Shown: piece after piece, positions 1,459-23,564 of the stretch
Numbering within the stretch: position 1 is the first letter of the stretch
Layout: every line of letters begins with the position of its first letter
Virus record (IMG/VR): IMGVR_UViG_3300025012_000263
Coordinates: 1 to 26,691 of that record
Strand: one strand, 5' to 3'
Source: a virus
DNA length: 26,691 bases
Made by a program: the position numbers and the translations under genes
The notes under the pieces: model-generated
Databases searched by the model: none
The model's input: only the letters and a program-made list of their open reading frames with translations
What the model was told of the DNA's origin: nothing

Positions 1459-1946
1459 TATTTCTTATGATGAGTTTTTATATCCTCATTATCCTCTAAA
1501 ATACCATCTCCTATTCCACTTACACCCCTTGTTTTAAATATAGCTGTAGCAGTCGTGTACCCAGCAACATTAGAGGTATCCCCACCAACACCAGCAGAAT
1601 ATCCTTTTTTATACATCTCAATAGCTTTCTCTGCCATCTCTCTCCAAGAAAGGACGATGGGGGATTCCTCATTGGGCTTATTTGCCGAAAATATCCCACT
1701 ATGTGTGAGGTAAGCACCCATATAATCGGAAGCAAATTGCAAAGAATTTGGTACAGGACTTACAGGAATAGCGGAAACTGTATCTTCCAACATAGAATTT
1801 ATGAAGCGTTCCCCATCCTCAATGTAAGATCTAATATCGGAAGTTCCTAGGGAATCAGTAAAAGCTGTGCCTATTGAAAAATACCCATAAGCCAATCTAA
1901 GAATTCTTTCCACTGTTTTCGTCCCCGTTGAATAATTCATACTCAT
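1458..1946 (-). CDS. Head-tail adaptor / connector-like protein
   Basis: 162 aa. An N-terminal helical region with a pattern such as YGYFSIGTAF, DIRSYIEDGERFINSML and FASDYMGAYL recalls the small helical adaptor proteins that bind under the portal (gp6- or Mu gp36-like). The C-terminus is Gly-rich and likely flexible. Its start overlaps the stop of the HNH gene as ATGA (1943-1946), and a GAGG ribosome site lies inside the HNH gene, so this virion gene is now coupled to a homing nuclease. The function is inferred from position in the neck block (after capsid genes, before the gpG-like gene) and from helical character. No catalytic motif is present. Confidence 0.5.
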   Translation of the reverse strand: MSMNYSTGTKTVERILRLAYGYFSIGTAFTDSLGTSDIRSYIEDGERFINSMLEDTVSAIPVSPVPNSLQFASDYMGAYLTHSGIFSANKPNEESPIVLSWREMAEKAIEMYKKGYSAGVGGDTSNVAGYTTATAIFKTRGVSGIGDGILEDNEDIKTHHKK

Positions 1947-2680
1947 AAGTATATCCTCATAATCTCAGAATAATAATTTGTCCAGTATTGTCTATTATTT
2001 TTACCATTTGTCTTTGCATGGCAAGAAACACAAAGAGTTGTAAGATTATCTAAACTATTGTTTTGTTTATTATAATCAATATGGTGAACGCATAAATTTT
2101 CTGTGTTCATACATCCTGGTGTTTGGCATATGTTGAAATCTCTATCCTTTATGAACTGCTTTAATTTTCCATTGAACTCAATACCATATTCTTCAAAAGA
2201 TTTTCCACCAGACCAATTTGGAGCAAGTTCACCAAATCTGTGAATACCAAGCATGGTCTTTTTTTTACCTTTTTTATATTCCTCTTTTCTAATTTCTGAA
2301 TTTCTTTTATTTTGTGCCTCTGTTCTCTTTTTGCCTACATTCTTACCAATATTTCCTTTTGTTATATTTATTACTGCTTCTTCTGTATGTTTTTTACCTT
2401 TAGTTAAATTTCTTAACCTATCTTTCTCCTCTTCTGATACAATTCTACCTCTAAGTGCTTTTGATAAATTTTGCCTATGCTCCTCTGTTTTCACATAATT
2501 TTTCATCGTTTCTGAAACTAATTTATATCGCACACAACCACAAGATTTTGCTTTTTTACCAATATCAAGCCTTTTTTCTACTTCTTGTTCACAAAAATCA
2601 CACCAAAATACAGCATAACTTTGATAATACCCTTTCTTATCTTTTCTTGCAGGTAATTTTCTAATTAAAATAAGTGCCAT
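1943..2680 (-). CDS. HNH homing endonuclease with N-terminal Zn ribbon and NUMOD3 repeats
   Basis: 245 aa. Residues 1-50 form a Zn-ribbon-like module (CDFC at 27-30, SCGC at 46-49). Residues 60-145 are basic repeats of the NUMOD3 kind (GRIVSEEEKDRL, GKKHTEEAV, GKKRTEAQN). Residues 150-235 are a classical HNH nuclease: C185/C190, H199-H200-I-D, the DNL core, then C217/C220/H221. It should nick or cut DNA at a specific site and spread into homologous genomes. It has its own consensus-like promoter ending 6 nt before the ATG, with no Shine-Dalgarno. It ends overlapping the adaptor gene start by 4 nt. Its C-terminal 95 residues closely resemble those of the nuclease at 14660. Confidence 0.9.
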   Translation of the reverse strand: MALILIRKLPARKDKKGYYQSYAVFWCDFCEQEVEKRLDIGKKAKSCGCVRYKLVSETMKNYVKTEEHRQNLSKALRGRIVSEEEKDRLRNLTKGKKHTEEAVINITKGNIGKNVGKKRTEAQNKRNSEIRKEEYKKGKKKTMLGIHRFGELAPNWSGGKSFEEYGIEFNGKLKQFIKDRDFNICQTPGCMNTENLCVHHIDYNKQNNSLDNLTTLCVSCHAKTNGKNNRQYWTNYYSEIMRIYL

Positions 2681-2751: not shown

Positions 2752-3111
2752 TTAAAGAACTGAATAACCACCAACATTGAATGAAACAGTGCCAAATAAA
2801 CCATGTAAATTTATATTCAAATTCGTACCTTTTGAAGTTTTTAAAGGTGCTTCAAATGCTTGATTAAAAATCCCTACAACTGGCAATTTCATTTGATATA
2901 AAAAAGCTGTACCATTTAGTAAATTTATAGAAGCATCTGCCAAATTACTTTGAAAAGAAATATCAGTAATAAATTTCTGATCCTGTCCTGAAATGACAGG
3001 TACACTTAAAGAAACAGTACCACCTATAGCTGTTCCTACATAACCATGCCATTGTCTCATGAAACTGTCAGTTTCTTTAGACAACATGATTTGATTAAAA
3101 TTTCTTGGCAT
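2752..3111 (-). CDS. 119-aa virion-region protein made of two modules (A-B) shared with the 672-aa protein
   Basis: 119 aa, function unknown. Residues 5-70 (module A: IMLSKETDSFMRQWHGYVG, then GGTVSLSVPVISGQDQKFIT, LLNGTAFLYQ) are nearly identical to the last ~65 residues of the 672-aa protein at 6125-8143. Residues 85-119 (module B: PLKTSKGTNLNIN..LFGTVSFNVGGY) match residues just before module A in that protein. The order is therefore reversed between the two. The modules look beta-rich, suited to a trimeric fibre tip or capsid decoration (inference). The gene follows MCP and two small genes and ends before the HNH gene. No enzyme motif is seen. Confidence 0.65.
   Translation of the reverse strand: MPRNFNQIMLSKETDSFMRQWHGYVGTAIGGTVSLSVPVISGQDQKFITDISFQSNLADASINLLNGTAFLYQMKLPVVGIFNQAFEAPLKTSKGTNLNINLHGLFGTVSFNVGGYSVL
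2966..3095 (-). repeat. 130-bp direct repeat, copy 1 (module A coding)
   Basis: This segment matches 6219-6348 at 129 of 130 positions. The only difference is at 2995 and is silent (GTC versus GTA for Val). Both copies lie in coding sequence on the minus strand in the same frame, 3253 bp apart, flanking scaffold, decoration and capsid genes. Confidence 0.9.
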
Positions 3112-3114
3112 ATG

Positions 3115-3378
3115 TTATATCAACCCCGTTCCAATAAAAATACCAATAGCTGTTCCAGCCACACCTGCAAAAGTCCCTCCACCAACTTGCCATATAGTCA
3201 CAGACTTCATATTATCAAATGAGGTTCCATATGTGTGTGCTGTTGATTTATTCAATGCTGTTATTACATGTTGAGGAACTTTGATCAGCCATGAGCCATC
3301 TACATTCTTATCCCTCATAAGTTGTGTTCTACCTACTCTGTATATTCCAAACTGACTATTATCAATTACATCTGCCAT
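3115..3378 (-). CDS. Small virion-region protein, unknown (87 aa)
   Basis: 87 aa, not recognised. The first half is polar (FGIYRVGRTQLMRDKNVDGSW). The last ~25 residues are Gly/Ala/Ile-rich and hydrophobic (VGGGTFAGVAGTAIGIFIG), which could be a membrane segment or a buried beta/helix packing element. A good ribosome site (AGGAGG) stands 10 nt before the ATG. It lies between the 81-aa protein and the 119-aa module protein, 3 nt from the next gene, so it belongs to the post-capsid operon. A role as a small structural or head-completion protein is plausible by position only. Confidence 0.6.
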   Translation of the reverse strand: MADVIDNSQFGIYRVGRTQLMRDKNVDGSWLIKVPQHVITALNKSTAHTYGTSFDNMKSVTIWQVGGGTFAGVAGTAIGIFIGTGLI

Positions 3379-3385
3379 TATTTAT

Positions 3386-3631
3386 CTAACCTCCTTTATA
3401 AACATGTTGTGGATGCCTATCCACTTGCTGACTTTTACTTAAATCAGTAACAATAGATTCTACTCTCCTCTTCCCTCTTTTACTTTTTGGCTGAAGTTCT
3501 TGTGGGAGAGCTTCTACCCAACCCAATTGTGTGTAATATTCTACTTGTGCTTTAGGAATATCAAAAATGTCACCTACACTTTGCCCACCTGATGGATATA
3601 ATGTTGAGTAATGCTTACAACGTACTAACAT
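3386..3631 (-). CDS. Small post-capsid protein, possible head-completion protein (81 aa)
   Basis: 81 aa. The pattern VRCKH...YPSGG..VGDIFDIPKAQVEYYTQLGWVE resembles short proteins commonly encoded right after phage major capsid genes, in which a conserved GD.fdvp...a..li..GwvE segment is followed by a basic tail (here KSKRGKRR). These are usually annotated as hypothetical or head-completion proteins. The ribosome site GAGGGA lies 9 nt before ATG. It is separated from the MCP gene by a strong hairpin (3664-3693), so its expression may be lower than that of MCP. No catalytic motif is visible. Confidence 0.6.
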   Translation of the reverse strand: MLVRCKHYSTLYPSGGQSVGDIFDIPKAQVEYYTQLGWVEALPQELQPKSKRGKRRVESIVTDLSKSQQVDRHPQHVYKGG

Positions 3632-3663
3632 TGTCTATTGTCCCTCATAAAAGTAAAACTTCA

Positions 3664-3693
3664 AGGACTCCACTCACTATTACATGGAGTCCT
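3664..3693 (-). terminator. Hairpin after the capsid gene (attenuator or terminator)
   Basis: Perfect 9-bp inverted repeat (AGGACTCCA / TGGAGTCCT) with a 12-nt loop, 15 nt past the MCP stop on the minus strand. The downstream tract (TTGAAGTTTTACTTTT on the minus strand) is T-rich but interrupted, so this may be a partial terminator or mRNA-stabilising 3' hairpin that raises MCP over the later genes. Confidence 0.55.
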
Positions 3694-3707
3694 CAAAGAA
3701 ATTAAAA

Positions 3708-4643
3708 CTAAGTTATTACGCCTGAGAGCAAATACCCGCAATCAGAACAGATCATCTTAGGGACATAATTATTTACCACCCTAATCCAATCGCCTTCACG
3801 CTCATCATCACGCCATGTAGTAACCTGCATATTCCTGTTACTAAGAACAAAAGTTCTTGCAAGAGTAATTGTATCTGACGGATTGACATAAGCAATTATG
3901 CAATTCTTACCCCAAGCATATGCCATTGTTGGGTTTAACCCTTGAACAGCACTATTATAAATTGCAGGAGCAATAACAACTTTAAGATCCCACAAAGTTC
4001 CAGGAAGTCCACCCTTTGTAAGTGCATTAGGGTCTGTGTACTTCCTCATCTCCTTTATTTGAGGATGATGTGCTAAATATTTCTCTACATGGGGAGGAAT
4101 CAAAATAACATTCGGCATTCTTGCCGTTCTTGCTGTAATTGCTTCCTTGCCTGTGGAAATATCATTCTCTGGGTCACTATTAGTATAATCATCCCAAAGA
4201 TTTGATGGGGTAACTACATGGTCTGGACTTGCAGAACTTATTCCACCAGTAACCCCAGTCAATAATATAGCTGCATCCAATTCTACACCAAGCTTTATCT
4301 TTTCAGTTAAAAACTTGGTAGTATCCGCTTTGAGATTGAATACATCATCAGCATTATTCATAGCACGGTCAGTTACTATATCCTTTACCGCACGCTCATA
4401 AGTTGTATATGTATCCTCATCATAAGACAGAGATGCCTCCTCAGCAGGAGCACCATCGGCTCTTTTAGGAGCACCAGAGAAATAACCATCCCTCTTATAC
4501 TTCCTAAACTTATCAGACTCCTTCTTTACAGGAAAATATGGGGCAAGATTCTCCATAACAAACGAAGCATTTGAATACTGAACTGCTATCTTAGACAAAT
4601 GTACATTTGTTTTGATCTTACCTGTTTGTATCGTTATAGACAC
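3708..4643 (-). CDS. Major capsid protein (HK97-fold type)
   Basis: 311 aa, GTG start with a strong ribosome site (AAGGTGGTGAT) about 5 nt upstream. The N-terminal segment (LAPYFPVKKESDKFRKYKR, then YFSGAPKRADGAPAEEASLS) and the later RTARMPNVILIPPHVEKYL, LWDLKVVIAPAIY, WGKNCIIAYV and VVNNYVPKMICSDCGYLL are typical of the HK97-like capsid proteins found in phages with Mu-type portal and protease genes. It would form the icosahedral shell. Context is decisive: the scaffold and decoration genes lie immediately upstream and the neck genes downstream. Length is normal for the family. There is no obvious N-terminal delta domain, consistent with the separate scaffold gene. Confidence 0.88.
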   Translation of the reverse strand: MSITIQTGKIKTNVHLSKIAVQYSNASFVMENLAPYFPVKKESDKFRKYKRDGYFSGAPKRADGAPAEEASLSYDEDTYTTYERAVKDIVTDRAMNNADDVFNLKADTTKFLTEKIKLGVELDAAILLTGVTGGISSASPDHVVTPSNLWDDYTNSDPENDISTGKEAITARTARMPNVILIPPHVEKYLAHHPQIKEMRKYTDPNALTKGGLPGTLWDLKVVIAPAIYNSAVQGLNPTMAYAWGKNCIIAYVNPSDTITLARTFVLSNRNMQVTTWRDDEREGDWIRVVNNYVPKMICSDCGYLLSGVIT

Positions 4644-4666
4644 TAAAAATCACCACCTTTCATAAA

Positions 4667-5296
4667 TTAGTTTAATACGTTATTCTTTATAAATCTGCTC
4701 TTTACTATTTCAACCTTAAATAATTGTCTTGGAGTTGTTGCTCTTTCCTTTGCAAAACCAAGAACAGGTTGGTCAATCTGGTAATAGAAATTACCCCCAC
4801 CAAAAGCACCTGCGTCAACACCTAAAAGCACTGTGCCTGATGCACCTAAAACAAGGTATGAATTAGTACCAGTCTCCCTAATAGACCCTGGGACTGCTTT
4901 ATTAGTAAGAGGGCCTCTTGGTACGACATGAGTACCAATATCTCCACCAGCAGCTATAGTTGCTACCGCCTCTGATGTATAAGCACTACGAACAAAACCA
5001 GTTGTACCACCACTATTGGTATAATCCAATATAACTGGGTCTCCTAAAGCAACTGTACCAGCCAAAGAGTTCCTCATGTTGATTACACCGTCTGTAGCAA
5101 CTTCTAAATAGTTATTCAAAGTACCTTCATTTGCCAAAATACCCCAAGGTATATCAGCAGCAGCATGACAATACTCAGCAGCTTCAGCAGTACCTATTGA
5201 AGTCCTAACAACATGACCTTCAAAACCAAAACTTGTTGAATTCCACTTAGCAGACCTTATTCCTTCTTTATTATCTCCTGTACTAAATTGTGGCAT
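4667..5296 (-). CDS. Capsid decoration / stabilisation protein
   Basis: 209 aa. It lies between scaffold and MCP with an excellent ribosome site (AAGGGGGTGAT). The sequence is Gly/Ala/Thr-rich and beta-prone. It has a pattern seen in head decoration proteins: an AADIPWGILANEG segment near residue 47-60, EVATDGVINMRN and VALGDPVILDY, then a Gly-rich C-terminal half. Such proteins bind the outer capsid and stabilise it. A recognisable DUF2190-like arrangement (repeated small beta domains with ..G.V..G..V..) is possible but not proven by eye. No catalytic residues are expected. Confidence 0.65.
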   Translation of the reverse strand: MPQFSTGDNKEGIRSAKWNSTSFGFEGHVVRTSIGTAEAAEYCHAAADIPWGILANEGTLNNYLEVATDGVINMRNSLAGTVALGDPVILDYTNSGGTTGFVRSAYTSEAVATIAAGGDIGTHVVPRGPLTNKAVPGSIRETGTNSYLVLGASGTVLLGVDAGAFGGGNFYYQIDQPVLGFAKERATTPRQLFKVEIVKSRFIKNNVLN

Positions 5297-5327
5297 TAAA
5301 AAATCACCCCCTTAAAATTTTTTATTT

Positions 5328-6029
5328 TTATAACTCTACTTTGCCTTCCTTAACAAGAACTGAACAAGCCTCTTGATAAGTCATTTTGTTGTCCTTTGCA
5401 TACTGATCTACTTCTTTCTCACTTAAATACTTCTTATTAGGGTCAGTGTTCTTCTCAATATGTGACCTCTCTTCAAGATTCACCCTAACCTCTGTAGGAA
5501 TAGCCTCAAGCATATCCACAATTACATCACTTACAGAAACATCCTTATCATCCAACTTTATTGTAGAAAACTTCCCAGAAACATCCTCCAACATTATTTT
5601 CTGAGCCTTCTCAACAACCGCTGGCCAAAAACCCTTAGAAATAAGATCGTCACAAATCTTAGTGACTTTCTCCTTCTTGAGGTCTATTTCCTTTTCGGAC
5701 AGCTTCTTCTCTGCTTCCTCCAATTTCTTATTTGCGGTCTCAATCTCCTTGGCATGAGATTCAGCAAGCTTCTTCTCAACCTCAGCTATTGCATCTTTAT
5801 GAGAATCCTCCAAAGCCTTCTTATCCTTTGTGAAAGCATCTGAAAGTTCTTGGAGCCTTCTCTCCATATCCTCTAATTTCTTCTCATCCGCCATATCCCT
5901 ATCACCCCCCTCTTTTTTTAATTCACCTTCTTTTTTAGTATCCTCCAATATAGTTTCTGTGGAATTCTGTTTTAAAATAGAATCCAAAAAACCAAAAAAT
6001 TTCTTTTTCTCCTCTTCTAAAATAGCCAA
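5328..6029 (-). CDS. Capsid scaffold protein with nested internal start
   Basis: 233 aa from a TTG codon with the ribosome site GGGGGTG. Residues 45-125 are a long Lys/Glu coiled coil. The C-terminal region (KICDDLISKGFWPAVVEKAQKIML, then SDVIVDMLEAIP) resembles the scaffold part of Mu-like protease/scaffold genes. It should guide MCP assembly and be removed by the upstream protease. A second ATG at 5894 (residue 46, MADEKK) has its own strong site (AGGGGGGTGAT), giving a 188-aa form, as in nested scaffold genes of lambda and Mu. The N-terminal extension (LEEEKKKFFGFLDSILKQN) is amphipathic. The gene lies directly before decoration and MCP. Confidence 0.78.
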   Translation of the reverse strand: MAILEEEKKKFFGFLDSILKQNSTETILEDTKKEGELKKEGGDRDMADEKKLEDMERRLQELSDAFTKDKKALEDSHKDAIAEVEKKLAESHAKEIETANKKLEEAEKKLSEKEIDLKKEKVTKICDDLISKGFWPAVVEKAQKIMLEDVSGKFSTIKLDDKDVSVSDVIVDMLEAIPTEVRVNLEERSHIEKNTDPNKKYLSEKEVDQYAKDNKMTYQEACSVLVKEGKVEL

Positions 6030-6064
6030 AATTACACCCCCTTTTATAACCTATAATATATTGT

Positions 6065-6092
6065 ACTATAAAAAAGCAAAAAAAATAAACAA
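6065..6092 (-). promoter_or_regulatory. Candidate promoter for scaffold-capsid genes
   Basis: Minus strand: TTGTTT (6087-6092), a 16-nt spacer, TATAGT (6065-6070), 35 nt before the scaffold TTG. Both hexamers are imperfect and the surroundings are very AT-rich, so this is tentative. The 95-nt gap between the fibre-like gene and the scaffold gene is the largest inside the head operon, which makes an internal promoter reasonable. Confidence 0.35.
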
Positions 6093-6096
6093 TTTC

Positions 6097-6125
6097 TTTA
6101 CATAATCAGTTACTTGTGGTATAAT
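6097..6125 (+). promoter_or_regulatory. Antisense consensus-like promoter facing the 672-aa gene
   Basis: Plus strand: TTTACA (6097-6102), a 17-nt spacer, TGG then TATAAT (6120-6125). This is a 5/6 -35 and a perfect extended -10 at ideal spacing. It fires into the 3' end of the minus-strand 672-aa gene, where no plus-strand gene exists. It may drive an antisense RNA, or be a chance match in AT-rich DNA. Confidence 0.4.
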
Positions 6126-8143
6126 TATGTTTTAGGTGTCTGTATTTGATAAATAAAAGCTGTGCCATTTAATAATTCCACAGAACCACCTGTTAAATTT
6201 GTGAAAAAAGACAAACTTGTAATAAATTTCTGATCCTGTCCTGAAATTACAGGTACACTTAAAGAAACAGTACCACCTATAGCTGTTCCTACATAACCAT
6301 GCCATTGTCTCATGAAACTGTCAGTTTCTTTAGACAACATGATTTGATCAATTTCCTTATTAGGAACTTTTCCTAATTTAGTGTAACCTGATACATTCAA
6401 CGAAACAGTCCCAAATAAATTAGCTATATTTATATTTAAATTTGTCCCTTGTGATGTTTTTAATGGTGTATTAAATCTATGAGAAAATTTATATGGATTA
6501 TTGGACGTTATCGGTGCATCACTAAATATCCATCCAGTATTACCACCACCATCTGTTGAGTTAGCTCCGGCATAAAAAGTTGCCCCACCAGTTGAAGGGA
6601 TATTAGTTAAACTTACATAGTCCCAGGATAAAGTACCTGAAGCCTTTGAAATAGTTGCTGACCCAGCAGAAGCGGTAAAGGTAATTACGTTAGTCCCATT
6701 ACCTAAGCCCTGTCCTGAAAGGAGAGTAGTGGTAGCAGAGCCAGGAAGGGTTATGGATTTAGTTCCTCCAATAACAGTTATCCTGTTAAAGGTATTTGCT
6801 CCTGTTATTATGACTGCTCCTGTACCACCACCAGTGATAGCAAGATTGTTGTAGATTAGGTTGCCTCCTTGAAATGTTTTTGAAGATGCAGAAATGTCGG
6901 ATAACAAAATTGTTGATGTCCCACTATTAAAAGTTAAGTTTGTTGTTACTGCTCCTGACCAAGGTACTCCAATAGCAGATAATGACCATGTACTGAAACC
7001 CATTAGAATAGAACGCAGATTGCTACCACTAAATGCAATATTCGCTAATGTAACATTGAAATCATTAGTATTAAATGTTCCGTTATTCAATGTAAATGCC
7101 CCTGTACAAGTGAGGGCATCTTGTAGGGTTAAAGTCCCTCCAAACATGGACATAGTAATAACACCAAAACTTTTCCCTGCACTGGTTAAGGTAAAAGAAC
7201 CTCTACCTTCTAAGGTCTGAGTTTGTCCAGTTGTTAAAGTCATTGCACTTATCAGAGTCATTGAACCATATCTTGTATTGGGAGTTGAGTTTAGGCCAAA
7301 AGTCGGACTTCCTGTTGCTCCTGTCCAGTCAATAGACTTTCCTAATCTTGGCATATTAGCAGTTACAGTTTGTGAGGCTGAGAAGGCATTATCAAAGTAG
7401 GCATCATCCTGTGGTAATGGAACTCTTGAAGTCCACTTAGTCACATCTGACCAGTTACCACCAGAAGCAGCAATCCAATGTTGGTCAACAGCAGTGGTAA
7501 AGGTGAAATTGGAGTTACCACCGCAGTCTCCTGAAAGACCTGTAATTGCTGAAATATCTGTAGGAGTATTAGCAGTTATGTCTCTAAAATCACAATTAAC
7601 AAAAGTCCCTCCCCCAATCGTAATTGTTAGTGATATTCCTATAGTATAAGTCTGAATTAGTAATCTATTGATAGTAGAATTACCTGAAATAGTATATCCA
7701 TTCATATTGAATAGACTATTTGCTATTTGTAAAACACAATCTGGCACAGCCAAGAAATTTAGATTACTGCCAAGAGTAATAGTACCTCCGGTGATAACGA
7801 TATTTCCAGTCAATTTACCAACAGTATTTAATGTTCCAGTTGCTGCTAAGGTAATTCTTGCAGAAGAGTTTATTGGTGAGTATGTCATTCCAGCTACAAA
7901 AGTAACCGACCCTGATGCTGTCCAATTAAAAGCATTATGCGTTAGTGTCCCTGTATACCCAGTACAATTAACACTCTTAGCCACAGACGTAGCATCAACA
8001 GTCAACTGCCCTGAATTAGCATCAAGGAACACGTCATCGGACGCTGTAGGAACTACTGTATCAGCAGCACCGCCACTTGTAGTAGACCATGTGGCATTGG
8101 CTGAATAGTTGCCTCCTACCCCTCTAACATAACGTGACGCCAT
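6125..8143 (-). CDS. Beta-rich fibre / decoration-like protein with C-terminal modules B-A
   Basis: 672 aa, Thr/Ser/Gly/Asn-rich with regularly spaced short beta segments (ITLAATGTLN, GNIVITGGTITLG, ANTFNRITVIGG), suggesting a beta-helix or repeated beta fold. Two related units are visible: near residues 13-60 (YSANATWSTTSGGA, SDDVFLDAN..LTVD) and residues 222-275 (WIAASGGNWSDVTKWTS, QDDAYFDN..QTVT). This unit occurs in phage fibres and surface adhesins. Residues ~560-600 are module B and ~608-672 module A, both shared with the 119-aa protein. It lies in the head operon between the 94-aa gene and the scaffold, an odd place for a tail fibre, so a head fibre or decoration role is possible. It starts immediately after the preceding stop. 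Confidence 0.7.
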   Translation of the reverse strand: MASRYVRGVGGNYSANATWSTTSGGAADTVVPTASDDVFLDANSGQLTVDATSVAKSVNCTGYTGTLTHNAFNWTASGSVTFVAGMTYSPINSSARITLAATGTLNTVGKLTGNIVITGGTITLGSNLNFLAVPDCVLQIANSLFNMNGYTISGNSTINRLLIQTYTIGISLTITIGGGTFVNCDFRDITANTPTDISAITGLSGDCGGNSNFTFTTAVDQHWIAASGGNWSDVTKWTSRVPLPQDDAYFDNAFSASQTVTANMPRLGKSIDWTGATGSPTFGLNSTPNTRYGSMTLISAMTLTTGQTQTLEGRGSFTLTSAGKSFGVITMSMFGGTLTLQDALTCTGAFTLNNGTFNTNDFNVTLANIAFSGSNLRSILMGFSTWSLSAIGVPWSGAVTTNLTFNSGTSTILLSDISASSKTFQGGNLIYNNLAITGGGTGAVIITGANTFNRITVIGGTKSITLPGSATTTLLSGQGLGNGTNVITFTASAGSATISKASGTLSWDYVSLTNIPSTGGATFYAGANSTDGGGNTGWIFSDAPITSNNPYKFSHRFNTPLKTSQGTNLNINIANLFGTVSLNVSGYTKLGKVPNKEIDQIMLSKETDSFMRQWHGYVGTAIGGTVSLSVPVISGQDQKFITSLSFFTNLTGGSVELLNGTAFIYQIQTPKT
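6219..6348 (-). repeat. 130-bp direct repeat, copy 2 (module A coding)
   Basis: Pairs with 2966-3095 (129/130 identical). It encodes part of module A at the C-terminal end of the 672-aa protein. DNA on both sides, including the separately shared module B, has diverged much more, so this block was homogenised or copied recently. Confidence 0.9.
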
Positions 8144-13443: not shown

Positions 13444-14118
13444 TTATTTATGACTATTTTTAATATGTTTCTTTAATTTACTCTCTATTCTACAAATAAC
13501 AGAACAAAAAGGACATTTGTATTTATTTTGCCCCTTAATTTTAAAGTTTTTTTCTATTTCTATATTTTTAATATCTTGTATGCTTTTTAGAATTAAAAAC
13601 AAAGCATCGGAGCATTGTTCGTTTTTATATCTAAGTATCTTTATATTAAATACTCTTTTTAAATGATCTTCTCTTTCCACATCTTTTGCTTGTTGTTCCT
13701 CCCCTTCATGGTATTTACCATCAATTTCAATTATTAAATTTTTCTTGGGGAAGAAAAAATCCACTATATAAAAGAAATTTTTTTCACTAAAGAAAAACCC
13801 ATGTTGAAAAATGAAAGAATCTTTCCCAAAAAACAAAGAAAATTTATCTTTTAAGAAACATTCCGAAGGTGTTGCTCTAATTCTAAGTTCATTTTCTCTA
13901 CTTTTCATTAAATAATAATTTTTTGTTTTCTTTACAAAAGGGGTATTTTTTAATACTTTCCTTTTTTTAGTTTTCTTCTTTACTCCAAGTCCCCAATCCC
14001 CTTTTTCTACTATATTTTTTACTTTTTTCTCATGATTTGATTTAAAGTGGTCTTCAGCCTCTTTCCATTTTGTAGTTGTGAATTTGCAAAAACGACATTT
14101 GAAAAGTTCTTTACTCAT
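13444..14118 (-). CDS. Zinc-finger / PD-(D/E)XK (DUF559/Vsr-like) nuclease
   Basis: 224 aa. A C2H2 finger opens the protein (C8, C11, H24, H29) and another closes it (C202, C205, H218, H223), both with spacing C-x2-C-x12-H-x4-H. The centre (residues ~75-175) is a DUF559/Vsr-like nuclease: E86 (TPSE), IVDFFFP with D120, the IIEIDGKYH core (E131, D133, H137), D146 and a closing KILRYKNEQ. Vsr-like folds include mismatch nickases and the EDxHD homing nucleases. With two DNA-binding fingers, a site-specific homing or defence nuclease is likely. The start overlaps the preceding gene as ATGA. The linker at 45-65 is strongly basic. Confidence 0.8.
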   Translation of the reverse strand: MSKELFKCRFCKFTTTKWKEAEDHFKSNHEKKVKNIVEKGDWGLGVKKKTKKRKVLKNTPFVKKTKNYYLMKSRENELRIRATPSECFLKDKFSLFFGKDSFIFQHGFFFSEKNFFYIVDFFFPKKNLIIEIDGKYHEGEEQQAKDVEREDHLKRVFNIKILRYKNEQCSDALFLILKSIQDIKNIEIEKNFKIKGQNKYKCPFCSVICRIESKLKKHIKNSHK

Positions 14119-17416: not shown

Positions 17417-18089
17417 AGAAGAATTTATTGCACAATATCCTGATGAAATACAAACTGAAATGAGAGAAGAATTGCAGAATATTATTGAGGAAGATGAGAA
17501 GATTGTTGAAGAATCAATAGCAATAGCAACAGAGGACACTGATACTACAGATAAAAATCCTGTAGGAAGACCGATAGGCATCCCAGCTTCTAATGCACAA
17601 AAAGAAGCAGTAAGTAAAGCTGCACGTGAATATCAGAGGAAATTGCGTGAGGGTTTGATTGAAAGACCAGCGTGGGAAACTCACGGAGCCTACAGTTACA
17701 TGAGTGGTGGTAAAGTTCCTAAAAAGAAAAGGTATTTGCTTGAATTTGTTCATAAAGAAAGAGAAAAATGGTTAGAGGAATTAGGTGGGGAAGAAAGTCT
17801 TACATCTATAGAAATCTCAATGCTTGACGAAGCAAGTAGGCTTCTTCTATTTAGTACGATGGTAAATGACTATCTTTTATCTGATGCAGATACAGATGTT
17901 GTATACAAAGGTAGTGATGGTGATATTAAAATGCACACTGGTCTTTCTCGTCATTATTTAAGTTTTACAAAATCTTACATCCAAATTTTAAGAGAACTTC
18001 AAAAAATTGCTACAGCAAAAACCAAGAAAAAGGGTGGTTCAAAGAAGGACAGTGCCAGTATTTTGCAAAAACTTTATAAGGAATCATAA
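17406..18089 (+). CDS. Possible small terminase subunit / DNA-binding packaging protein
   Basis: 227 aa from ATG 17406, chosen because AAGGA lies about 10 nt upstream. A frame from 17361 would reach further into the previous gene. Residues 1-50 are very acidic. A GRPIGIPAS motif near residue 55 is followed by helices (QKEAVSKAAREYQRKL), an aromatic segment, a long helical region (LDEASRLLLFSTMVNDYLL) and a basic tail (KKKGGSKKDS). The last part (HYLSFTKSYIQILRELQKI) recalls the C-terminal helices of P27-like small terminases. The position two genes after TerL supports this, but the match is weak. It may instead be an unknown regulator. Confidence 0.45.
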   Translation: MMDEEEFIAQYPDEIQTEMREELQNIIEEDEKIVEESIAIATEDTDTTDKNPVGRPIGIPASNAQKEAVSKAAREYQRKLREGLIERPAWETHGAYSYMSGGKVPKKKRYLLEFVHKEREKWLEELGGEESLTSIEISMLDEASRLLLFSTMVNDYLLSDADTDVVYKGSDGDIKMHTGLSRHYLSFTKSYIQILRELQKIATAKTKKKGGSKKDSASILQKLYKES

Positions 18090-18090
18090 T

Positions 18091-18678
18091 ATGAAATTGA
18101 TAAGAAAATTAGATATAAGGAAGGATAAAAATGGGTATAAAAGAAGGTGGGGTTTGTTTTGGTGTGCTGATTGCTTACAAGAAGTTGAAAGACAAATGAC
18201 TCAAGGGAAAAAGCAAATATCTTGTGGTTCTGTGCAATGTGTGGGAAAGAAAGGTAATTTTAAACATGGTGAAACTAAGACAAGATTACACCGTATTTGG
18301 ATAAATATGAAACAAAGAGTTTTAAATCCAAATGAACATGCTTATAAAGACTATGGAGGAAGAGGAATAACTATATGCAATGAATGGTTAGAATTTATCC
18401 CGTTCAGGGATTGGGCATTAAATAATGGTTATGCAGAAAATCTACAAATAAATAGAATAAATAATGATGGCAATTATGAACCAAGTAATTGTAATTTTAA
18501 AACTCCAAAGGAAAATTCAAGACATAGGAGAGGACAAAAAATAAAAAATAAGGGAATGGCTAATGAAATTAGAGACTTGCACATTGTAGAAGGTTGGACA
18601 CAAAAACAATTAGCTGAAAAGTTTGATATTTCTGTAGCTACTATTTCTTTAATTATTAATAATAAAATATGGGTTTAA
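18091..18678 (+). CDS. AP2/HNH-like homing-type DNA-binding protein with C-terminal HTH (copy 1)
   Basis: 195 aa from ATG 18091 (AAGGAA 8 nt upstream). An earlier frame from 18007 overlaps the previous gene. Residues 1-55 form the same Zn-ribbon module as the HNH nucleases (CADC, SCGS). Then comes the phage pattern KHGETKTRLHRIW, YKDYGGRGITICNEW, then a DNNGNYEP-like segment and a P.EN.RHRR end, typical of AP2/HNH-related homing proteins. The C-terminus is a helix-turn-helix (TQKQLAEKFDISVATISLI). It likely binds DNA. A nuclease centre is not certain. It is a recent relative of the gene at 20242. Confidence 0.75.
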   Translation: MKLIRKLDIRKDKNGYKRRWGLFWCADCLQEVERQMTQGKKQISCGSVQCVGKKGNFKHGETKTRLHRIWINMKQRVLNPNEHAYKDYGGRGITICNEWLEFIPFRDWALNNGYAENLQINRINNDGNYEPSNCNFKTPKENSRHRRGQKIKNKGMANEIRDLHIVEGWTQKQLAEKFDISVATISLIINNKIWV

Positions 18679-19602: not shown

Positions 19603-20279
19603 AAAATTATGATGTGGTAATTATAAGTAGAGATATAGCTAAGAATTTAATTATTAAGAATCACTACACCCATGTTTTTAGCTCATGCAGATATTCTTTT
19701 GGATTGGTATTGGATAATAGAATAGTTGGTGTTTGTGTATATGGTTATCCTGTTGGTAGATTAACAACACAGAGCATTTCCCAAAAAATAGAATCCAATA
19801 ATGTATTAGAATTAACACGTCTATGGGTAAATGATAGTGAGGGTAAAAATACTGAGAGTTACTTCATTGGGCAAACATTTAAATGGTTGAGGAAATATGA
19901 TAAAGATATTAAAGTATTAATTTCTTATAGTGACCCTATGCAGAAGCATGTCGGATACATATATCAAGCAACCAATTGGTTATATCAAGGGAATAAAACA
20001 AGGTTGGTGGATGGGTACTATTATATAGTACATGGTGAAACATTACACCCAAGAACCTGTTTTTCAAAATATTCCACCACTAAACCGGATGAATTACTAA
20101 AAATAGACCCTAATTTCAAAAGATTTGAATTGGAGAGAAAGCATCGTTATATTTATATATTGGATAAGAGGGATAAAAAACAAATTTTAAATACTTTGAA
20201 ACATCCAATATTAAAATACCCTAAATTGGAGGAAGATAAAATTGGAATTAATAAAAACATTAGGAACAAAACCCAATAA
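19599..20279 (+). CDS. Mom-like DNA base modification protein
   Basis: 226 aa. It resembles the Mom family (Mu Mom modifies adenine in phage DNA to protect it from restriction) through an IKNHYTHVFSSCRYSFGLVL opening and VGVCVYGYPVGR (residues ~20-54), the ELTRLWVNDSEGKNTESYFI block (~71-90), and VLISYSDPMQKHVGYIYQAT followed by NWLYQG (~107-132). This fold is related to GNAT acyltransferases. Mom uses an unusual chemistry, and its substrate here is unknown. It overlaps the HAD gene upstream and, by 38 nt, the AP2/HNH-like gene downstream. In Mu, mom is tightly regulated because it is toxic. No comparable control site was recognised. Confidence 0.82.
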   Translation: MKNYDVVIISRDIAKNLIIKNHYTHVFSSCRYSFGLVLDNRIVGVCVYGYPVGRLTTQSISQKIESNNVLELTRLWVNDSEGKNTESYFIGQTFKWLRKYDKDIKVLISYSDPMQKHVGYIYQATNWLYQGNKTRLVDGYYYIVHGETLHPRTCFSKYSTTKPDELLKIDPNFKRFELERKHRYIYILDKRDKKQILNTLKHPILKYPKLEEDKIGINKNIRNKTQ

Positions 20280-20826
20280 AAATAATATCCTTATAAGTTG
20301 GGCCTTATTCAAATGTCCTGATTGTTTACAAGAAGTTATAAAACAATTAGGACATGGTAAATCAGCAAAATCTTGTGGTTCTGCAAAATGCAAAAAGAAT
20401 AAAACAAATTATAAACACGGTGGATTTGGGACAAGATTATATAAAATATGGACAGGTATAAAAGATAGGTGTTTAAATTCAAATAGGAATAATTTTCCTA
20501 ATTATGGGGGTAGAGGAATAACTATATGCAATGAATGGTTAGAATTTATCCCTTTCAGGGATTGGGCACTTAGTAATGGGTATGCTGAAGGATTGCAAAT
20601 ACATAGAGAAAATGATGGTAATTATGAACCAGATAGTTGTAGATGGGTAACTCTAAAAGAGAATTGCAGACATAGAAGAGGACAAAAAATAAAGAATATG
20701 GAAATGGCTAATGAAATTAGAGACTTGCATAAGACAGGGAATTATACACAAAGAGAATTGGCTGAAAAATATAGTATCAGTAGACAAGCTATTTCTGATA
20801 TTACTAATAATAGAACTTGGAAATAA
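20242..20826 (+). CDS. AP2/HNH-like homing-type DNA-binding protein with C-terminal HTH (copy 2)
   Basis: 194 aa from a TTG codon at 20242 with a strong GGAGGAA site 7 nt upstream, inside the end of the Mom-like gene. The start is confirmed by alignment with MKLIRKL/MELIRRL starts of relatives. Zn ribbon (CPDC, SCGS), then YKHGGFGTRLYKIW, NYGGRGITICNEW, HRENDGNYEPDSCRW, ENCRHRR and a C-terminal HTH (TQRELAEKYSISRQAISDI). Two DNA blocks match the gene at 18091 closely (56/57 and 57/61 bases), so the pair arose by recent duplication or transfer. Nuclease activity is inferred from the family. Confidence 0.75.
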   Translation: MELIKTLGTKPNKNNILISWALFKCPDCLQEVIKQLGHGKSAKSCGSAKCKKNKTNYKHGGFGTRLYKIWTGIKDRCLNSNRNNFPNYGGRGITICNEWLEFIPFRDWALSNGYAEGLQIHRENDGNYEPDSCRWVTLKENCRHRRGQKIKNMEMANEIRDLHKTGNYTQRELAEKYSISRQAISDITNNRTWK

Positions 20827-21493: not shown

Positions 21494-22651
21494 ATGTCTA
21501 AAAAATTAACTTCGGAAGAATTTTCAAAGAAGTATGAAATTTTGATAGGTTTATATGACCAAGGATTGAGTCAGGTTCAAATAGCAAGTAAGTTAGGGAA
21601 AAGTCGTGCAGCTATTATAAAGACAATCAAAAAAGGTATAGTATTGAATATTTTGACTGCTCGTGATGAAACTTTTGTTACTAAAAGTATTAAATCTCCA
21701 AAAGAAATATTAAAGGAACAAGATGAGCGTAGATTGATACAACAACAGGTAAGGGAACAATCAAGAACGGAACTTATAATTGACTCAGTTAAAGAAGCTA
21801 TTATACCTATCCCTTATATGAATAGTATAACATATAAACCTGTTGGTGATAAGAAAGAGGAAGAAGAAGCAGTTCTTGTATTGAGTGATGTTCACGTAGG
21901 TAAAGTTACTAAAAGTTATAATCCTAAGATATTTAAGGAAAGGCTTGATAAAGTAAAGAATGGTATGTTGAGAATTGTCGAATTACTTAGAAATGGTTAT
22001 TCATTAAATACATTAAATATTATCCTTGGCGGTGATATAGTGGACGGTGAAGGAATTTACCCCACTCAGGCCATGTCTATTGACCAAGGGGCTTTAAAAC
22101 AGGTATTTCAAACCGGAGTGCCAGAATTTTCTAACATGTTTATAAATTTTCTTAAATATTTTAAAAAGATAAGAATACATTGTGTTAGAGGTAATCATGG
22201 TCGTAGCGGTAGATTTGCGGATGAAACATCTAACTGGGATATGGCCTTGTATGAGGCTTGCAAAATAGCGACACAAAATTATAAAAATATTGAATGGAAC
22301 ATATCTTATTCATGGGAAAATATGTTTAAAATATATGATTGGAAGTTTTTATTGATTCATGGGCATCAGGTAAAGATGGCTATGAATATACCTCATTATG
22401 GGGTAACTTCCAAAGGTATGAGATGGCAAGGTTCAATGGGTCACTTTGATTATTTAGTTATGGGTCATTTTCATGTAGCTCAATATTGTGAATGGAATGA
22501 GTGGGAATATATGATGAATGGGACTTTCAGTTCTGATGACGAATTTAGTCAAGAAATTATAGGATTAATGGGGAGCACTAAACAATTATTCTTTGGTATA
22601 CATCCTCGTAAGGGGGTTACTTGGAGATATAAGATTAATTTGGATAAATAA
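21494..22651 (+). CDS. Calcineurin-like metallophosphoesterase with N-terminal HTH
   Basis: 385 aa. Residues 10-48 form a helix-turn-helix (GLSQVQIASKLGKSRAAIIK). Residues ~126-385 are a calcineurin-like phosphoesterase with all metal motifs: SDVHVGK (D132, H134), GGDIVDGEG (D181), RGNHGR (N234, H235), LIHGHQ (H289, H291) and MGHFHVAQ (H325, H327). Such enzymes act as nucleases (Mre11/SbcD type) or nucleotide phosphatases. The DNA-binding front suggests nucleic acid as substrate. Ribosome site AAAGGGAAA. It sits between the small acidic gene and the radical SAM gene, and could serve repair, host DNA degradation or modified-nucleotide handling. Confidence 0.85.
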   Translation: MSKKLTSEEFSKKYEILIGLYDQGLSQVQIASKLGKSRAAIIKTIKKGIVLNILTARDETFVTKSIKSPKEILKEQDERRLIQQQVREQSRTELIIDSVKEAIIPIPYMNSITYKPVGDKKEEEEAVLVLSDVHVGKVTKSYNPKIFKERLDKVKNGMLRIVELLRNGYSLNTLNIILGGDIVDGEGIYPTQAMSIDQGALKQVFQTGVPEFSNMFINFLKYFKKIRIHCVRGNHGRSGRFADETSNWDMALYEACKIATQNYKNIEWNISYSWENMFKIYDWKFLLIHGHQVKMAMNIPHYGVTSKGMRWQGSMGHFDYLVMGHFHVAQYCEWNEWEYMMNGTFSSDDEFSQEIIGLMGSTKQLFFGIHPRKGVTWRYKINLDK

Positions 22652-22652
22652 A

Positions 22653-23564
22653 ATGAAAGTAGGATTAATAGATGTGGATTCCAAAATACCAAATATAGCT
22701 TTGATGAAGCTATCCACATTTCATAAAGTAAAAGGAGATGCAGTAGAATTTTGGAAAGGTTCATTTTTTAATGATGAATATGATAAAATATACGCTTCAA
22801 AGGTTTTTGATTTTTCTTCCTTACCAAATGGGATGGATAAAAAGACAATTATTGGTGGAACAGGTTATGATTTAACTATTAAACTACCTGATAATGTAGA
22901 ATACTTATGTCCTGATTATTCATTATACCATAATTGTGATTATTCTATAGGATTTATTACAAGGGGGTGTAACAGGAATTGCTCATTTTGTAAAGTTCCC
23001 AAAAAAGAAGGCAAAATTAAATTCAACCAATCATGGGATAATTTCAAAAATCCTAATGGTAAATATTGGGTATTCTTAGATAATAATATTCTTGCCTATG
23101 AAAATCATTTAGATATTTTAAAAGAGATTAATGAAAGAAGGATGGTTATAGATTTTAACCAAGCAACAGATATACGCTTAGTTACAGAAGAAAATGCAAA
23201 AATATTAGCAACGATTAAATGGCATTCTTATTATCGTTTTTCTTTCGATTGGGTGTTTTTAGATAAGCAGATTATTGAAAAAGTTAAATTGTTAAATATC
23301 TTTGGATTACCCTCTTACAGGATGTTTTGTTTTATTTTAATTGGTTATAATACAACTATGGAAGAGGACTTATATAGAGTAGAATTGTGTAGAGAATTAA
23401 AAATAAATCCTTTTGTTATGCCATATAATAAATTTGATAAATACCAAAAAGACTTTTCCAGATGGGTTAATCATAAAGCTATTTTTAAATCTGTTGCTTG
23501 GGAGGATTATAAGAAAAAGAATTGGAAAATGCCTACTGTAAATGACCAACAAAAATTAATTTGA
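22653..23564 (+). CDS. Radical SAM protein
   Basis: 303 aa from ATG 22653. A frame from 22593 overlaps the phosphoesterase and was not used. The cluster motif C106-x3-C110-x2-C113 lies in GFITRGCNRNCSFCKVPKKE, binding a 4Fe-4S cluster and SAM. The N-terminal ~100 residues (LIDVDSKIPNIALMKLSTFH, YDKIYASKVFDFS, IIGGTGYDL) resemble the front domain of phage/mobile radical SAM proteins and of B12-binding-like relatives, though no B12 motif is seen. The reaction and substrate are unknown. The ribosome site is weak. It lies next to Mom-like and nucleotide genes, so a base or tRNA modification is a reasonable guess. Confidence 0.85.
   Translation: MKVGLIDVDSKIPNIALMKLSTFHKVKGDAVEFWKGSFFNDEYDKIYASKVFDFSSLPNGMDKKTIIGGTGYDLTIKLPDNVEYLCPDYSLYHNCDYSIGFITRGCNRNCSFCKVPKKEGKIKFNQSWDNFKNPNGKYWVFLDNNILAYENHLDILKEINERRMVIDFNQATDIRLVTEENAKILATIKWHSYYRFSFDWVFLDKQIIEKVKLLNIFGLPSYRMFCFILIGYNTTMEEDLYRVELCRELKINPFVMPYNKFDKYQKDFSRWVNHKAIFKSVAWEDYKKKNWKMPTVNDQQKLI

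Follow-up and report, generated by a model that had tools for sequence, protein, structure and literature searches.

How did two genes in the virion region of one phage come to share a nearly identical patch of DNA, and does the shorter gene serve to rewrite the tip of the longer one? The window analyzed here covers one virus record in full, 26,691 bases. Its minus strand carries, in order, genes for a portal, a head morphogenesis protein, a lysozyme-like endolysin, a 94-aa protein, a large repeat protein (p2), and a scaffold-like protein, followed by decoration-like and major head protein genes, two small genes, a 119-aa gene (p1), an HNH endonuclease gene, and connector-type genes. The features that bear on the question are as follows.

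1943-2680, minus strand: HNH endonuclease gene (PHROGs), inserted between p1 and the next gene
2752-3111, minus strand: p1, open reading frame of 119 aa with module order A-B; homologues occupy the same place in relatives
2755-2880, minus strand: module B in p1 (residues 78-119), from BLAST match and rotation
2881-3111, minus strand: module A in p1 (residues 1-77), its edge set by the best rotation against the p2 tip
2966-3095, minus strand: near-identical core of A in p1 (putative exchange tract), 129/130 identical to 6219-6348
3115-6029, minus strand: genes between the copies (PHROGs and Pfam), in an order common to relatives
3115-3378, minus strand: 87-aa gene
3386-3631, minus strand: 81-aa gene
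3708-4643, minus strand: major head protein, strong match
4667-5296, minus strand: decoration-like (cement-like) protein, weak match
5328-6029, minus strand: scaffold-like protein, weak match to the tail of the head-maturation-protease family
6125-8143, minus strand: p2, open reading frame of 672 aa; repeats in residues 1 to ~550, then the permuted tip
6128-6367, minus strand: module A in p2 (residues 593-672, up to the C-terminus), from profile match (E=1.4e-39) and rotation
6219-6348, minus strand: near-identical core of A in p2 (putative exchange tract), 129/130 identical to 2966-3095
6374-6490, minus strand: module B in p2 (residues 552-590), from profile match (E=1.2e-14) and rotation

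Comparison of p1 with p2 by BLAST gave two matches in swapped order, with 184/208 nt identical in module A and 67/84 nt in module B. Treating p1 as circular placed the best cut after residue 81 in alignments with the p2 tip (cuts at 79-85 were nearly equal) and raised the alignment score from 302 for unrotated p1 to 413-420 for the rotated forms; the best shuffled p1 scored 36. BLAST and rotation therefore agree on the arrangement proposed in a preliminary description of this DNA, A-B in the 119-aa protein and B-A in the last ~120 residues of the 672-aa protein. The p1 proteins of three relatives (L003, L004, and L010) gave nearly the same best rotation. In p2, the old p1 termini are linked by two extra residues, Gly-Lys, beyond which Val-Pro of p2 aligns with Met-Pro of p1. 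The tip contains the whole domain once, in rotated order; judged from these alignments, it is one full p1 domain, circularly permuted with a cut near p1 residue 77-81.

A fold common to the two permuted copies is only suggested by their AlphaFold models, which are poor (mean pLDDT, 58.6 and 51.0) and in which predicted strands fall in corresponding segments. The weak p1 model matched Ena fibres, carbohydrate-binding modules, cupins, and insecticidal Cry proteins in the PDB and uncharacterised phage proteins in BFVD. These matches are of the generic beta-sandwich or jelly-roll kind, and we claim no function from them. A profile search of p1 against solved structures returned nothing convincing, and a fold search with the poor p2-tip model returned no significant match. 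The body of p2 (residues 1 to ~550) carries GGNWS..W..P..DDA.FD-type repeats, and its first 461 residues partially match a protein of Limnohabitans phage DC31 at 40% identity.

The 130-bp block described earlier was verified at 2966-3095 and 6219-6348. Its single internal difference (GTC/GTA, both Val) is silent, and its copies lie in direct orientation with a start-to-start spacing of 3253 nt; the genes between them include, as also proposed, those for the scaffold-like and decoration-like proteins (both weak matches) and the major head protein (a strong match). The longest one-mismatch run in the alignment of module A is exactly these 130 nt, and the longest exact run is 100 nt. When the mismatches in A were permuted 20,000 times, no one-mismatch run of 130 nt arose (maximum, 70). 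The tract begins near the p1 start codon and ends at Phe-Ile-Thr codons, and identity drops right past it, to 64% in the rest of A and 70% in module B (67/84 nt in the BLAST match), in agreement with the earlier claim that B has diverged in DNA. A search of the whole window found p1 sequence only at the p1 locus and at the end of p2. Other repeated pairs in the window are 69-79% identical and mostly endonuclease genes, leaving the p1/p2 tract as the sole patch of its kind.

We considered whether such a patch could have been produced by assembly. The window is a metagenome contig, and a 130-bp repeat is near typical assembly k-mer sizes. However, both loci sit in the gene order of other contigs (scaffold to p1 to connector; lysozyme, slot, scaffold), and the copies keep differences inside the tract and at its edges. 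A search with an exact 32-mer of the core found no other assembled allele that could have been the source. An artefact is thus very improbable.

Related contigs provided the means of dating the patch. Major head protein identity to the window is 95-96% in L003 and L004 and 82% in a group comprising L010, L012, L014, L028, L029, L033, L036, and others, which are nearly identical where compared. All contigs covering the place of p1 have it as a single-copy gene for 119 aa with fixed neighbours, the 87-aa gene immediately ahead of it and the connector gene behind. These proteins share 60-64% identity with the window p1 (L003, L004, L010, and near-identical contigs), and a profile search found no second p1 copy in any related record searched. 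Only 4 of the 21 codons changed between p1 of L003 and L004 are replacements, a codon pattern indicating that p1 is under purifying selection.

The p2 body was absent from all relatives examined. The place it takes in the window, between lysozyme and scaffold, holds several unrelated genes in L008 and L010, and L004 starts in genes of this type; the place resembles a fibre slot whose contents can be exchanged. The slot genes (L008:16804-18605 and L010:5238-8090) are several and small, some with repeats such as VTSAKLADGAV, and one pair in L008 shares 65% identity over 328 nt. When viral contigs and species genomes were searched for additional relatives of p1, p2, and the p2 tip, only the L003/L004 and L010-type lineages came up; a degenerate B-motif pattern hit these relatives again, matched L034 by chance, and yielded nothing of use in L032 or L035. 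Because no genome other than the window was found among the relatives searched to carry both p1 and a p2-type tip, the case for an exchange is built on one genome.

Within the window, the cores of p1 and p2 are 98.4% identical, with 2 silent and 0 replacement changes among 43 codons. Between either window copy and p1 of L003, L004, and L010, core DNA identity is 62-70%, with 13-16 silent and 11-15 replacement codons; 24-31 codons differ in each comparison. The rest of A and module B show no such closeness, the distance between p1 and p2 being about the same there as between genomes. Outside the core, the p2 tip is no nearer to the resident p1 than to the L010 p1, with 55 of 183 nt differing in the first comparison and 55 in the second; inside the core, it differs at 2 nt from the window p1 and at 49 from the L010 p1. 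The contrast extends to silent sites: where both copies encode the same amino acid, 2 of 43 codons have changed silently in the core versus 14 of 39 in the rest (Fisher P = 5e-4), and silent sites of the core differ less within the window than between the window and L003 (P = 8e-5). These sequence comparisons therefore give good support to a recent exchange, local in extent, between two paralogous domains that are themselves old: the tract is limited, and the copies are closer within the genome than between genomes, silent sites included. The suggestion of a recent exchange limited to A is upheld and narrowed to the core of A, and the expected pattern, with A identical within a genome and different between genomes, is true for the one genome with both copies. 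The few remaining differences show no direction of transfer.

The core by itself looks recent, as it would if the whole p2 tip were a recent duplication of the resident p1 whose remaining A and B sequence had diverged fast under selection. Selection on the protein and fast divergence after duplication do not account for the pattern, because silent sites outside the core have diverged too (14/39, against 2/43 in the core); moreover, p2 outside the core is not specially close to the resident p1. We regard a recent duplication as very improbable. The core also contains an imperfect 33-nt inverted repeat, TTGTCTAAAGAAACTGACAGTTTCATGAGACAA, which could mark a functional site conserved as DNA, for example for recombination or packaging. 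This repeat is absent from p1 of L003, L004, and L010, where the core DNA is 62-70% identical, making a functional DNA site extremely improbable; the repeat as a recombination site was dropped from consideration, as the relatives lack it.

The preliminary description went further and proposed that p1 may serve the p2 tip as a donor cassette, in a possible variation system without a reverse transcriptase. In its favor, the identity within the genome is confined to part of A, and the sequence received would lie at the C-terminus of a fibre-like protein. Neither part of the proposal is supported. By sequence, p1 is an intact, syntenic gene of the virion region, conserved as a gene and with its own start 3 nt after the upstream gene; it is under purifying selection, and it is kept where p2 is absent. 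The contig has one donor and one recipient, p1 and a single p2 tip without a second variant, and what can be seen is one event in one genome. The core has no amino acid difference between the copies, so this event made no diversity between them. Since p1 is conserved in its own right and retained without p2, and since a single event left the copies the same, the donor-cassette reading is unsupported, and repeated rewriting of the p2 tip by p1 is most unlikely. The tract has 1 internal difference, too few to show an adenine bias; its copies are direct, unlike the inverted repeats that bound invertible or shufflon-type segments; and no reverse transcriptase was recognized among the 30 window proteins scanned with PHROGs, in a contig that may be incomplete. 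A broader version, in which p1 and permuted p2 tips exchange patches recurrently in the lineage and p1 is a running, reverse transcriptase-free source of fibre-tip sequence, is given a very small probability. If true, it would be a route of variation without reverse transcriptase, working between circular permutants.

The probable history, in our assessment, is that of an ordinary p1 and a lineage-specific p2 with a permuted tip, between which a patch of ~130 bp later passed by homologous recombination without an intramolecular crossover. By its position and beta-rich prediction, p1 would be a small, ordinary protein of the virion region with a beta-rich domain, and p2 a lineage-specific fibre-like protein ending in a circularly permuted p1-type domain (B-linker-A); a virion location is presumed for both. 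Such a tip would be the expected remnant if a p1-like gene had been duplicated, fused, and trimmed. The permuted copy is probably either old or derived from a different phage, since its divergence from the resident p1 outside the core is as great as that among the p1 genes of different genomes. The ~130-bp stretch coding for the start of A would then have been copied or swapped between p1 and p2, perhaps during replication or coinfection. An intramolecular crossover would delete the scaffold, decoration, and major head protein genes and two more, so the event was probably a non-crossover patch or a double exchange between molecules. Phage recombinases tolerate short, diverged homology (PMC3945230). 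An SbcD-like exonuclease and several HNH endonucleases were recognized in the window, and no annealing recombinase was recognized among the proteins scanned. Overall, the tract has the look of a product of ordinary phage recombination rather than of an inbuilt variation system.

The p2 tip could mimic a p1 subunit, with the fibre docking onto p1 or sharing its ligand; the exchange would then have been kept because both copies need the same surface. In favor of this, the stretch of p1 encoded by the core (SKETDS..R.WHG..GT..GGTVSLSV) is well conserved, and the copies have no replacement change there; the idea is purely inferential, and we consider it rather unlikely. It adds function to the recombination history more than it competes with it, and a common binding or docking role of the domain is conceivable under that history.

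Homing endonuclease genes are often found at borders of exchange between phages (PMC10448857). The HNH gene at the junction of p1 and the next gene is absent from L003, L004, and L010. Identity between the window and L003/L004 is 81-90% for most head genes and about 70% for p1 and the next gene, a drop near the HNH gene that may reflect co-conversion and is not tied to the 5' tract. The HNH gene was rejected as the cause of the tract; it adjoins the 3' end of p1 and the tract lies at the 5' end, so there is no direct link.

HNH genes occupy differing junctions: after p1 in the window (1943-2680) and after the next gene in L003 (3882-4568) and L004 (5243-5896), with none between p1 and the next gene in L010. 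Elsewhere in the window, a deoxynucleotidase-like gene and a Mom-like gene for DNA modification lie between two HNH/HTH-type genes of the plus strand (18007-18678 and 20242-20826), which are 74% identical over 512 nt. A radical SAM-type gene (22593-23564; PHROG 9298, E=1.3e-80) adjoins the SbcD-like exonuclease gene, with the Mom-like gene nearby; these three possibly form a DNA modification cluster. A DUF559-type endonuclease-like protein with zinc-finger-like ends (13444-14118) lies between the two divergent gene blocks.

Among titles and abstracts of the open-access literature, we found no described exchange between circular permutants in phages. The window gives a clear example from nature in which both circular permutants of a virion-region domain share a genome and still exchange DNA. 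It also shows how relatives can be used to date a patch of local identity between two loci, in place of taking the patch for a variation system. Should the domain bind a ligand or dock the fibre, the two copies would be a ready natural pair of permutants for testing.

Several known systems resemble parts of this arrangement. Circular permutation can arise by duplication, fusion, and trimming, and as in permutants of that origin each part of the domain is present once, rotated, with the old termini joined by a short linker; unlike the usual case, both forms occur in one phage genome, and no intermediates were seen. In diversity-generating retroelements, too, a repeat lies near the end of a receptor-type protein gene, but here no reverse transcriptase was among the proteins scanned. 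Silent-cassette gene conversion, exemplified by the pilin genes pilE/pilS, likewise leaves a short copy identical in one patch to the end of a surface-type protein gene; here, the short copy is a conserved, intact single gene without a cassette array, and one event is seen. Relaxed homologous recombination between mosaic or paralogous phage genes, carried out by phage annealing proteins (PMC3945230), is similarly a homology-driven exchange of short, diverged patches. The present case differs from it in having no recognized annealing recombinase and in joining two loci of one genome that are circular permutants of each other.
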